DNA from: Bacteroidota bacterium
GTDB taxonomy: Bacteria; Bacteroidota; Bacteroidia; Chitinophagales; Saprospiraceae
NCBI GenBank assembly: GCA_018222965.1
Contig: JAAEZH010000007.1
Span: 62,001 to 126,000, forward strand
Direction of reading: 5' to 3'
DNA: 64,000 nucleotides
The translations under genes were made by a program, and so were the position numbers. Below are positions 7,345 to 10,836 of the stretch, piece after piece. Below the pieces are notes generated by a model. That model made no database searches and was not told where the DNA came from. It was given only the letters and a program-made list of their open reading frames with translations. Position 1 is the first letter of the stretch; the number at the start of each line of letters is the position of its first letter.

Positions 7345-8742
7345 TTATTCAGTAACCAGACGGATCTTGTTGGTCTTTGTGCGGGCTTTCAGCCAGTCAC
7401 TGAGCTGGTTTAATTCCTGCTTCCGCGGATTGCGTTTAAATTTGACATACGCCAGATAGGCAGTATCCATTTGAAGGCTGTCGATGTGGGATATTATGCT
7501 GTATGACACAGAAAGTTCTTCCACATTTTGATTGATGGTGCGTACCTCGGAAACCAGATCCTGTATAGGCATTTCCTGAGACCGATATCGAATGATCTCT
7601 TCTTCCAGTAATTTGATACGGGCGTCTTTGGTGGCCAGTAGTTCTTCGTTTCGTTTATAGAGGTCTTCAATGATACCTGTGCGCATCTGCTGGTTTAGTT
7701 GTTCCAGGGTTTGCATGTCGACGCCATTGTCCTCCTGGTATCCCTGGCGGATGGTAAGCTTGGCATCTTCAATGCCGTATTCTACCATTTTAGACCGGGC
7801 CTGCTCCAGGAATTCTTCGGGCACTGGTTCTCCGTAAAGCGTTACATCTATGGTTCTTTTTCCGGCTTCCGTTTCAATGCGTTTGGAGATGACCTGGCAA
7901 TTGTCAAATTGCAATTCGTCCCGGATGTAAAGGTTTGCATTTTGCTCGAACACAGTCTTTTGTACAACCCGGTAAGCAGTAATAACACTGGGAATGATGG
8001 TCAGGATAACCAGGATGCTGATGTATTGCCTTACTTTAGATTCCCGCTCGGAGTCGACAAATTCCTTTTTCGGAAATTTAAGGTAGCGCACAATTACATA
8101 GGTAGCCACGCTGATAAATACGCTGTTGATGAAGAAGAGATACATGGCTCCAAAGAAAAAATTCCACTGGGCCGTTGCCAGTCCATAACCTGCTGTACAG
8201 AGCGGCGGCATGAGCGCAGTAGCAATAGCTACTCCCGGGATGGCGTTGCTTTTCTCTGCTCTGGAGCCGGCAATAATTCCCGCCAGGCCGCCAAACAGGG
8301 CAATAAGCACATCCCACATGGTGGGCTGTGTTCGGGCCAGTAATTCGGAGGAAGCTTCCTGTAAAGGGGTTATCCAGAAGTAAGCGGCAGAGGTCAATAC
8401 CGCCATGGCAACCGCAATTAGCAGATTCTTGGCAGCTTTTATAATCAACTGAAAATCATTGATCCCAACCCCGAGTCCGACACCCATGATCGGGCCCATA
8501 AGCGGGGATATTAGCATCGCACCGATAACGACTGCCGTGCTGTTTACGTTTAGACCGACAGAAGCGACCAGGATGGCAAAGATGAGAATCCAAAGATTGG
8601 TACCCCGAAAAATCACCTGCTTGCGAATTTCTTCTATAGTCTGTCTTTCGCTTGCCTGGTCTTCCTGCAGGTCAAAGCGATCTCTAAAAAAGTTTCGGAC
8701 TTCGGATAACAATCTTAGTCCGGTTGTTTTTCTTCCAGGCAT
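7345..8742 (-). CDS. DUF389 family membrane protein
   Basis: A 465-residue integral membrane protein of the DUF389 (TIGR00341) family, whose biochemical role is not established. A short charged N-terminus is followed by membrane segments containing the family signature VVIGAMLISPLMGPIMGVG and a second conserved stretch, SNAIPGVAIATALMPPLCTA. The C-terminal 190 residues are soluble, with a coiled-coil-like section rich in Glu, Gln and Arg (MRTGIIEDLYKRNEELLATK). I start it at MPGRKTTG (8742); an in-frame ATG at 8829 would add 29 residues unlike the family. It is the first gene of a probable two-gene unit with the GH36-like gene. Confidence 0.85.
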   Translation of the reverse strand: MPGRKTTGLRLLSEVRNFFRDRFDLQEDQASERQTIEEIRKQVIFRGTNLWILIFAILVASVGLNVNSTAVVIGAMLISPLMGPIMGVGLGVGINDFQLIIKAAKNLLIAVAMAVLTSAAYFWITPLQEASSELLARTQPTMWDVLIALFGGLAGIIAGSRAEKSNAIPGVAIATALMPPLCTAGYGLATAQWNFFFGAMYLFFINSVFISVATYVIVRYLKFPKKEFVDSERESKVRQYISILVILTIIPSVITAYRVVQKTVFEQNANLYIRDELQFDNCQVISKRIETEAGKRTIDVTLYGEPVPEEFLEQARSKMVEYGIEDAKLTIRQGYQEDNGVDMQTLEQLNQQMRTGIIEDLYKRNEELLATKDARIKLLEEEIIRYRSQEMPIQDLVSEVRTINQNVEELSVSYSIISHIDSLQMDTAYLAYVKFKRNPRKQELNQLSDWLKARTKTNKIRLVTE

Positions 8743-8898
8743 AAGGAGTTCTAAGAATATGCCTAAAGGTATTGAAGTTTTTTTTCCTTTAGACAGGATA
8801 TTAGACGTGCAAATTGGGAAAAAGAACATGGGAGTTGGATTTTTTGACCAGAAATCCCTAATTTTTAGGATCGCTTTGAGTAATCAATCCCGTAACCC

Positions 8899-9363
8899 AT
8901 GAACATTTTTCACGCCTTATGTGGAGTAATTTCCCTGTTGGCCGGCCTTGGCATTTTCCTTTCCAGAAAAGGAACCAGGCTACACCGGCGAATGGGATGG
9001 ACCTATACGATCTCCATGTTTGTATTGCTAATAACCTCTTTTTTTATTTATGATTTTTTTGGCCGCTTTGGTGCATTTCATATACTGTTTCTGCTTTCCG
9101 CCGGGACTCTTATGATTGGCTTATCTATGCCGCTTTTTTTTCGAAACCGATGGCAGAATTGGGTGATACATCATTATTTCTGGATGAGTTATTCTTACGT
9201 GGGATTGGTTATGGCAACCGGTTCTCATTTGTTTGGGCTTGTACCTGCCTGGCCTGTCTGGCTCCGGATATGCGCCTTTTGGTTATTCCCTTACCTGGTT
9301 GGTACCATCCTGATTTATTCCTGGAAAAATCGGGTATTGGCGTCTCTTCCCGGGAAAGACTAA
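8899..9363 (+). CDS. DUF2306-like small membrane protein
   Basis: A 154-residue protein with four predicted membrane helices (about 3-20, 33-52, 57-77 and 122-142). HRRMGWTYTISMF and IHHYFWMSYSYVGLVMA resemble the DUF2306 family of uncharacterised membrane proteins, in which conserved histidines lie near the membrane face. It is divergent from the DUF389 gene and stands alone, since a repeat-rich stretch follows. The function is unknown. Confidence 0.75.
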   Translation: MNIFHALCGVISLLAGLGIFLSRKGTRLHRRMGWTYTISMFVLLITSFFIYDFFGRFGAFHILFLLSAGTLMIGLSMPLFFRNRWQNWVIHHYFWMSYSYVGLVMATGSHLFGLVPAWPVWLRICAFWLFPYLVGTILIYSWKNRVLASLPGKD

Positions 9364-9403
9364 AAATGATAAACCATTAAGAAATTGGATTGGATTGTAG
9401 TTC

Positions 9404-9474
9404 GACCCGCCTACGCGGGTCGGCGTTTGAATGAAACTCTGGCGTTAGGAAGGGGGGACCCGCCTACGCGGGTC
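9404..9474 (+). repeat. REP doublet A1 (REPIN-like)
   Basis: Two copies of the hairpin GACCCGCCTACGCGGGTC (9404-9421 and 9457-9474), with 7-bp arms and a 4-nt loop, separated by 35 nt. The doublet is identical to A2 (10372-10442) except for one loop base. I take this orientation as plus. Confidence 0.85.
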
Positions 9475-9558
9475 TGATTGACATGGCAAATTCTTTATTA
9501 ATTAATTTGGAGTTCTGTACAGGACAAAACCATATTGTGGAACAAATCATTATGGTGC

Positions 9559-9628
9559 GACCTGCTTACGTGGGTCGTTTTTGTTGGGTACCATTGTGCT
9601 AATGATGGGAGACTCGCCTACGTGAGTC
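9559..9628 (+). repeat. diverged REP doublet C
   Basis: GACCTGCTTACGTGGGTC (9559-9576) and GACTCGCCTACGTGAGTC (9611-9628), separated by 34 nt. The right hairpin carries a paired change in both arms (C to T opposite G to A), so base pairing is kept. The spacer resembles that of B1 and B2 read on the minus strand. Confidence 0.75.
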
Positions 9629-9706
9629 TGATTTGCTTCTCGATTAGGATATTCACTTTTCCTGGAAAACCCTCTGGGCTTCAGGTAACTCATTATAACC
9701 ATTTTA

Positions 9707-9777
9707 GACCCGCGCTGGCGGGTCAGACCTCCTTAGCACATGGTTGCCCCCAATGAAACGACCCGCGCCGGCGGGTC
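9707..9777 (-). repeat. REP doublet B1 (inverted)
   Basis: Hairpins GACCCGCGCTGGCGGGTC (9707-9724) and GACCCGCGCCGGCGGGTC (9760-9777), 35 nt apart. Read on the minus strand, the spacer shows the same pattern as doublets A and C, with GTTT near the left hairpin and TAAGGAGG near the right. It lies 127 nt before the transposase gene. The 80-nt stretches between the doublets hold nothing else I can identify. Confidence 0.82.
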
Positions 9778-9904
9778 GAACCATTTTGAATTTTGAAAAT
9801 TGCCTGATTTCCTCTATTATTAAAGAGAATTCCAACATCCCATTCCATTTTATAGATTTATTATTCAACACCTGGGCCCTCAGGGTGGCTAAGAGGTATC
9901 GTTT

Positions 9905-10357
9905 ATGGAATTCACCTATTCACAAATCCAAATTCACGTAGTTTTTGCTGTACGATTTAGGCAACCCTTAATTTCTCCGGATTGGGAGGAGAGACTTCAC
10001 AAGTATATAACTGGGGTTATTCAAAATAGAGGGCAAAAAGTACTTGCTATTGGTGGCATGCCGGATCACCTTCATGTATTGATTGGAATGAGACCGAATT
10101 ATCTGATTTCCGATCTGGTTCGGGAAATAAAAAAAAGCTCTTCCAAATTTATTAAGGAGAATTATTCAACCAAGAGCCCTTTTTATTGGCAAAGAGGCTT
10201 TGGTGCCTTTTCCGTAAGCTCAAAAAGCACAAGCGTTGTAATACGATATATCCTAAATCAAAAAACACATCACAAGGATAATTCCTCCAAAGCTGAATTC
10301 AAAAATTTGTTGGATGAACACTTAATCGATTACGATTTGGAGAAACTTCCTGATTAA
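9905..10357 (+). CDS. REP-associated Y1 transposase (RAYT, IS200-like)
   Basis: A 150-residue single-tyrosine HUH transposase of the IS200/IS605 TnpA superfamily (COG1943). The metal-binding HUH motif is His55-Leu-His57 in GGMPDHLHVLIGM, and the likely catalytic tyrosine is Tyr115 in VIRYILNQKTHH. WQRGFGAFSVS is another family hallmark. Such enzymes nick and join single-stranded DNA at hairpins. The gene is flanked on both sides by 18-nt palindrome doublets, the arrangement expected of REP-associated (domesticated, non-self-mobilising) transposases rather than of a simple insertion sequence. No second gene (tnpB) is present. All motifs are intact, so it may be active. The first ATG is used. 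Confidence 0.9.
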   Translation: MEFTYSQIQIHVVFAVRFRQPLISPDWEERLHKYITGVIQNRGQKVLAIGGMPDHLHVLIGMRPNYLISDLVREIKKSSSKFIKENYSTKSPFYWQRGFGAFSVSSKSTSVVIRYILNQKTHHKDNSSKAEFKNLLDEHLIDYDLEKLPD

Positions 10358-10371
10358 TAGGTGGAAGGTTC

Positions 10372-10442
10372 GACCCGCCTGCGCGGGTCGGCGTTTGAAT
10401 GAAACTCTGGCGTTAGGAAGGGGGGACCCGCCTACGCGGGTC
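10372..10442 (+). repeat. REP doublet A2
   Basis: Begins 14 nt after the transposase stop. Hairpins lie at 10372-10389 and 10425-10442. The spacer and the flanks are the same as in A1, including several bases outside the hairpins (GGTTC-like before, TGATT after), so the duplicated block is slightly larger than the doublet. Confidence 0.85.
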
Positions 10443-10669
10443 TGATTTTGATGTGTTTATTTCTGGTGTTTTTTTGGGAGCATTTATAACCTAGCTCCAG
10501 GATTGTACAGTGGATTTTTAAATTATTGGGTACAACAAGTCAGGCATGCCCATTCAGGTTTTTCTCTTTTTCAGTACAACGTCGGACAGAATATTTCCCC
10601 CTGTTTCTTTTGTCCTATGTCGAAGGAAATCATTTTTAATACGGCTTATCCTTTAATGTCTGGCAGATT

Positions 10670-10740
10670 GACCCGCGTAGGCGGGTCAGACCTCCTTAGC
10701 ACATGGTTGCCCCCAATGAAACGACCCGCGCCGGCGGGTC
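10670..10740 (-). repeat. REP doublet B2 (inverted)
   Basis: Hairpins lie at 10670-10687 and 10723-10740, with a spacer identical to that of B1. Together with A2 it repeats on the right of the transposase gene the A-then-inverted-B order found on the left. The 227 nt between A2 and B2 and the 96 nt after B2 contain no gene I can support. Confidence 0.85.
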
Positions 10741-10836
10741 GAACTCAACAATATTTATCGAGATATATGAAGAATGCATAGGGGTTCCTCCGGAGCAATT
10801 GCATCTATTGGGTGAAATCATCAAAAATCACCCGAT

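Follow-up and report, generated by a model that had tools for sequence, protein, structure and literature searches.

Hairpin doublets as candidate substrates of a low-copy IS200-like transposase in a Bacteroidota genome

The window, as we call the whole stretch of 64,000 nucleotides analysed here, contains between positions 9404 and 10740 five hairpin doublets of 70-71 nt each, which lie on both sides of a gene for a Y1 HUH transposase. All five were located where a first-pass annotation had placed them. The features are listed below, with X and Y denoting the units that recur on the two sides of the gene.

9400 to 9474, minus strand: doublet X1, a 75-nt unit reading hairpin A, box, hairpin B and GAAC on the minus strand; TAA box at 9445-9447
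9555 to 9628, minus strand: doublet 2, with diverged hairpins and a TAG box at 9599-9601 on the minus strand; it adjoins one arm (CTGTACAGGACAAAA) of a TIR element
9707 to 9781, plus strand: doublet Y1, reading hairpin A, box, hairpin B and GAAC on the plus strand; TAG box at 9734-9736
9905 to 10357, plus strand: Y1 HUH transposase gene, intact, 150 aa, of the TnpA_Y1 subclass 1.2 type (DHLH, YWQ, YILNQKTHH)
10368 to 10442, minus strand: doublet X2, 99% identical to X1; TAA box at 10413-10415 on the minus strand
10670 to 10744, plus strand: doublet Y2, 97% identical to Y1; TAG box at 10697-10699

Two neighbouring genes encode a DUF389 membrane protein (7345-8829, minus strand) and a DUF2306 membrane protein (8899-9363, plus strand), neither with an evident link to the transposase. 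The pattern GACCCGC-N4-GCGGGTC, initially ascribed to every hairpin, is exact in eight of the ten in the window, and both hairpins of the doublet at 9559-9628 are variants, with two and three changes. Allowing up to two mismatches gave nine sites in the window versus 0.13 in shuffled sequence. Read on the strand that places the hairpin first, a doublet unit consists of hairpin A, 8-9 nt, TA(G/A), about 22 nt, hairpin B and the edge GMAC. All 17 aligned doublets preserve the TA and, at the GMAC edge, the G and the C, and the loops of the two hairpins share one orientation in every one of these (17/17).

The X copies (9400-9479 and 10368-10447) are 99% identical and the Y copies (9707-9781 and 10670-10744) 97% identical, and in both pairs the identity ends at the unit edges, except for 5 nt beyond X. 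The DNA between X and Y is dissimilar on the two sides of the gene, with an alignment score of 26 versus a shuffled mean of 29 and maximum of 49. The repeated items around the gene are therefore the units and not a duplicated block, and the first view of the flanks as a duplicated pair holds for the units but not for the DNA between them. The X-to-Y distances are oddly alike, 303 nt (9404-9707) and 298 nt (10372-10670), though the intervening DNA does not align.

The window protein matches Pfam Y1_Tnp with an E-value of 2.9e-28, and His55, His57 and Tyr115 are invariant in an alignment of 17 sequences, in agreement with the initial description of an intact Y1 HUH transposase. Its designation as a RAYT, in the strict sense, had to be given up. 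The protein carries the signature Y---Q--HH (YILNQ) and not the Y---NP of class 2 RAYTs; it scores 36.4 bits against the NCBIfam profile REP_Tyr_transpos (NF047646), far below the cut-off of 80, and 77.8 bits against the NCBIfam IS200 profile, above the cut-off of 55. The form Y---Q--[HN]H is present in 80 of the 80 best named relatives. The genome, of 5.48 Mb in 105 contigs, contains two Y1 genes that are 47% identical to each other, a low copy number and non-IS character as in subclass 1.2; several near-identical gene-bearing copies, as in IS200/IS605 (subclass 1.1), were not found in this genome. The likeness to subclass 1.2, as far as it is described in the relevant passages of PMC6006769, extends to protein length (theirs about 148 aa), the DH[IV]H-type and WQ motifs, Y---Q--HH, low copy number and occurrence in Bacteroidetes. 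Judged by its sequence, the window protein fits TnpA_Y1 subclass 1.2 and not RAYT proper. Among plasmid and phage records we found only relatives below 60% identity, the best among the matches listed being 49%, on a Bernardetia plasmid.

An AlphaFold model of the window protein has a confident Y1 fold (mean pLDDT 86.8) and superposes on the E. coli RAYT 4er8 with an rmsd of 2.7 Å over 119 columns. The solved structures nearest by E-value are chains of ISDra2 and IS608, with the E. coli RAYT further down; their E-values are better than that of 4er8 but their rmsd is larger, most at 6 to 9 Å. In a single-chain model a cis and a swapped arrangement look the same, and we build no conclusion on structure. 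The second subclass 1.2 gene of the genome (C96:76226-76657, locus L055) has its own hairpin, TGCCTCC-N3-GGAGGCA, on both sides, with TAA at +9, and two more copies of this hairpin lie on C34 and C42.

Across the genome the perfect window hairpin occurs at 35 sites on 15 contigs, and the pattern read backward at none. When T was permitted for C in one arm, giving G-T wobble, with a loop of 3 or 4 nt, we counted 76 cognate hairpins, 35 perfect and 41 with wobble (35 + 17 + 24), so the doublets are not confined to one locus. A covariance model of the doublet gave 45 hits in the genome, several of which are one place read on the other strand. Two subfamilies can be distinguished, GACCCGC with a 4-nt loop and GACCTGC-GNA-GCGGGTC, and in ten inspected doublets of the latter the wobble lies on whichever strand has the hairpin first in the model's reading. 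Compensated base changes are few: GACCCAC/GTGGGTC on C58, and one pair in the variant hairpin at 9611-9628. At 22 sites examined the element lies between neighbouring ORFs of at least 300 bp in a mechanical ORF call, with four exceptions where a mechanically called ORF of 267-588 nt spans it; at one of the 22 a hairpin cluster overlaps an ORF start by 24 nt. Doublets were found between tandem, convergent and divergent gene pairs, and the 17 aligned copies contain no gene remnant. On C45 (L022, 4171-4442) about 181 nt are duplicated in tandem, one doublet of the second subfamily included.

In 39 related genomes the perfect window hairpin is absent (0/39), versus the 35 copies here, which upholds the initial proposal of a family of palindromes that is dispersed in the genome and goes with a Y1 transposase. 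The wider pattern has two isolated single matches among these relatives, one each in G034 and G037, which have no relative of the transposase gene; the hairpins are thus not equally common in relatives lacking the gene. A relative of the gene is encoded in 22 of the 40 genomes, our own included. The same-genus genome G001 has 29 TTGCTCC-N3 hairpins, spread over 25 contigs, and G025 has 14, with none in 38 others; CGATCCC-N3 hairpins number 50 in G002 and four in G038, with none in 38 others; and TGCCTCC-N3, the stem of the second own gene, occurs four times in the own genome and in none of the 39 others. Every carrier of these three stems encodes a relative of the gene. All 14 TTGCTCC hairpins of G025 lie at its gene, without dispersal. 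At that locus (L043, C218) about 14 near-identical hairpins form array-like runs on both sides of the gene, often 54 nt apart, with none elsewhere in the genome. In G038 a gene fragment with 63% identity to the window protein (C159:5113-5343, L249) sits beside a CGATCCC hairpin in another family, a hint that gene and hairpin travel together.

A search for CGACTCC-N3,4, with 50 of the 80 loci submitted and 47 genomes searched, found the hairpin in four genomes whose gene locus showed that stem, as expected by construction, and in two of the 43 others; what carries information is the lack of the hairpin in 41 of these 43. G059 has CGACTCC hairpins though its gene locus showed a different stem. 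In the complete genome of Draconibacterium orientale dispersal is slight, with five copies, two of them at the gene. Twelve gene pairs flanking doublets, from 12 of the 22 examined sites, were compared with G001. Four of the 12 are adjacent there, and none of the four holds such a doublet; by match ends their gaps are 27, 65, 82 and 89 nt in G001 versus 372, 567, 329 and 428 nt in the own genome. As the intergenic DNA of G001 has diverged, precise insertion junctions are not readable there. At one of the four empty sites (L023) the insert in the own genome includes TIR arms too, and the other three have no TIR arm.

The association of gene and hairpins extends to other loci. Of the best 80 named loci with relatives of the gene, most of them Bacteroidota according to the record titles, 69 extend for at least 400 nt to either side of it. 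Up to a distance of 900 nt from the gene, at least three similar hairpins occur in 24 of these 69, versus five of 523 control windows centred at least 3 kb away in the same loci; the figures for at least two are 41/69 versus 23/523, and with identical stems required 19/69 versus 10/759. No two similar hairpins were found at 28 of the 69. The stems vary by locus and share NNRYYCC, with C at position 6 in 28 and at position 7 in 29 of 30 loci. The window stem GACCCGC is an exception at position 6; aligned on the stem base (C-GAC...GTC-G), its box position equals that of the other loci. Stem difference grows with protein distance (Mantel rho 0.29, 0/5000 permutations) in a test that covers 30 loci, ignores shared ancestry beyond distance, and had L109, L062, L071, L042 and L048 removed by hand, their repeats looking unlike the rest. 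In the hairpins of L079 and L087 the second position of the stem retains an A-G mismatch (TAGCTCC/GGAGCGA and TAGCCCC/GGGGCGA), which is perhaps a recognition feature.

Repeated hairpins are strongly enriched near subclass 1.2 relatives. The table of Quentin et al. 2018 gives 'no' under REP for this subclass, which is there described as IS200-like proteins without IS properties or REPs, and the automatic REP search of that study required GTAG or GTGG 5' of the hairpin (PMC6006769). Unlike that listing, the window gene and many of its relatives are flanked by repeated hairpins; this corrects the 'no REP' entry and leaves the membership of the subclass as it is. In the open-licence PMC literature we found no earlier report of REPs for subclass 1.2.

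A TA(G/A) box accompanies many of these hairpins. In 35 loci selected for their repeats, TAG starts exactly 9 nt past the 7-bp stem in a mean of 37% of hairpins (those flanked by TAG at either end count twice), and other offsets from 1 to 37 reach at most 9%; with TAA also allowed, in the same selected loci, offset 9 has 44% and the next best 12%. The sample comprised 28 loci with at least three similar hairpins and nine added by eye, of which 35/37 had at least three hairpins. With TAA counted, the peak offset is 9 in 18 of the 35 loci with repeats and another offset in 17. Around the box the loci with repeats have a consensus of approximately AATRTYKRTAGMAA, with no conserved 5' foot. Because these loci had been chosen for repeated hairpins, the box was tested on held-out loci and dispersed copies. 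At 52 held-out loci TAG stands at 9 in 15 of 48 perfect hairpins versus a mean of 1.1 at other offsets, and in distal hairpins in 2 of 51. The dispersed G001 copies have TAG at 9 in 18 of 20 and, by eye, mostly a second, weaker hairpin about 35 nt on, followed by GCACC or near, which is the edge of the window family. The G002 copies away from the gene have it in 17 of 32, with TAA there in many others, and the G038 copies in none of four (12 G002 and 4 G038 stretches inspected, a subset of copies). The second own family (TGCCTCC) has TAG in none and TAA at the box position.

Of 95 hairpin strands in the own genome, 17 have TAG at +10 counted from GAC...GTC (next best offset, 4), and within the GACCTGC subfamily TA(G/A) was read in just 4 of 10 doublets inspected. 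Downstream of 68 TAG hairpins near the transposase genes, the next hairpin follows at 28-39 nt in 40, and none lies within 90 nt in 23. The held-out loci and the same-genus dispersed copies bear out the box, and many loci are without it. GTAG occurs near the foot in one of 17 doublets (X1), and no 5' consensus was found over loci. A shared 5' foot, GTNC, failed across loci and was dropped, and an IS608-type complementarity between guide and cleavage site, examined by eye, yielded no rule.

A TIR element with the ends CTGTACAGGACAAAA and TTTTGTCCTGTACA encloses or adjoins hairpins at at least nine sites of the own genome, the following having hairpins inside or adjoining:

window, 9517-9558
C25:23202-23317
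C42:12231-12331
C50:27068-27225
C3:55701
C7:2923
C73:15906
C28:698
C65, about 18900

The C25 and C42 copies hold one hairpin and the C50 copy a doublet, which looks like the loss or gain of one hairpin with its spacer. We looked for hairpin-free copies among 23 matches; all but three weak ones were inspected, and these carried one hairpin, a doublet or a remnant. The TIR element may have carried some hairpin copies. That it accounts for the family as a whole, the hairpins being passengers spread by this unrelated element and by local tandem duplication, with the Y1 gene merely among them, we consider unlikely. Such spread would agree with the one or both TIR arms beside hairpins at these sites, with the doublet inside the C45 duplication and with the TIR arms at L023, but the other three sites empty in G001 have no TIR arm, the X and Y units recur without the element, and the link between hairpin and gene holds at many unrelated loci with other stems.

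It is also possible to see the gene and its flanking doublets as one IS200-like insertion sequence, with the outer hairpins as its ends and the dispersed doublets as decayed or internally deleted copies. The protein does exceed the IS200 cut-off and subterminal hairpins are typical of the IS200 family, but we regard this as very unlikely, since the genome has just two Y1 genes, which share 47% identity and differ in their hairpins, and since the 17 aligned doublets hold no gene remnant. Least credible of all is a role as regulatory RNA or terminator elements that selection keeps downstream of genes and that at present have no connection with the transposase: the doublets are mostly intergenic and wobble pairs on one strand would suit RNA too, but they lie between tandem, convergent and divergent genes alike, no Rfam family matches the window at the gathering threshold, the repeats cluster at the transposase and not elsewhere, and the genomes of close relatives lack the doublets.

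Considering the observed unit anatomy, the genome-specific dispersal, the presence and absence within the genus, the association of gene, hairpin and box, and the correlation of stem with protein distance, we think it probable that the hairpin doublets are cognate, non-autonomous substrates of the low-copy IS200-like transposase of subclass 1.2, moved in trans. The ends of IS200/IS605 elements such as IS608 and ISDra2 consist of two hairpins in the same orientation, and in IS608 a possible cut site, the right-end cleavage site, lies about 10 nt 3' of the hairpin. Lying about 10 nt 3' of hairpin A, the box matches this site in position, and we therefore propose that it may be where cleavage occurs or may act as a guide, and that the two hairpins would form the ends of the unit. 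Enzymes of the Y1 superfamily cut and join single-stranded DNA beside hairpins through their tyrosine (PMC8266576). The protein would bind single-stranded DNA at its folded hairpins, for example on the lagging-strand template, and Tyr115 would cut where the hairpin, and probably the TA(G/A) box as well, directs it. The unit of about 75 nt could then be rejoined elsewhere between genes, in trans and without target duplication.

Several known systems resemble this one in part. As in class 2 REP systems with TnpA_REP (RAYT), in the descriptions given by PMC6006769 and PMC8266576, a single gene has its own flanking palindromes, which also disperse between genes of its genome; the hairpins are strand-asymmetric, and gene and hairpin vary together across genomes. 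Unlike those systems, as the same passages describe them, the window family has a class 1 protein (Y---Q--HH), no GT[AG]G foot, TA(G/A) 8-9 nt 3' of the hairpin and doublets in direct orientation. The dispersed unit resembles REPINs or BIMEs in being a short palindrome pair with a short linker, but these are pairs of inverted REPs (PMC8266576, in its account of such units), whereas in all 17 doublets the hairpins point the same way, and the name REPIN given in the first-pass annotation does not apply. The GTAG- and CGTC-tagged palindromes of Di Nocera 2013 are likewise short and intergenic and some are RAYT-linked, in the sections of PMC3733652 that deal with them, but neither tag is conserved at the window-family hairpins. 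IS200/IS605 elements (IS608, ISDra2) offer the closest solved folds by E-value and the same-orientation hairpin pair; unlike them, the own genome has no identical gene-bearing copies, and no gene lies between the two hairpins of a doublet. The system works like a REP system, is neither a REPIN nor a class 2 RAYT system, and is best filed as a subclass 1.2 REP-like system. The earlier label of a self-contained system would fit the gene and its hairpins, as read from the DNA.

A wider reading, which we put forward tentatively and as somewhat short of an even chance, is that of a widespread class of single-stranded DNA mini-transposons, in which each doublet of some 75 nt would form a full unit with two ends, first hairpin A with its TA(G/A) box and then hairpin B, mobilised in trans by a subclass 1.2 transposase that has itself ceased to be an insertion sequence. 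If this were true, subclass 1.2 would be a missing link from IS200 transposons to REP systems, and its recognition code, stem plus 3' box, would be distinct from GTAG. The design, with a genome-specific stem, a box at fixed distance and a direct doublet, is unlike the REP types set out in the corresponding parts of PMC6006769 and PMC8266576. Subclass 1.2 was previously without a known substrate, and the hairpin doublets are now proposed as one. Many natural pairs of protein and hairpin are available for deriving recognition rules, and it becomes possible to test in cultured Bacteroidota how a transposon turns into a REP system acting in trans.
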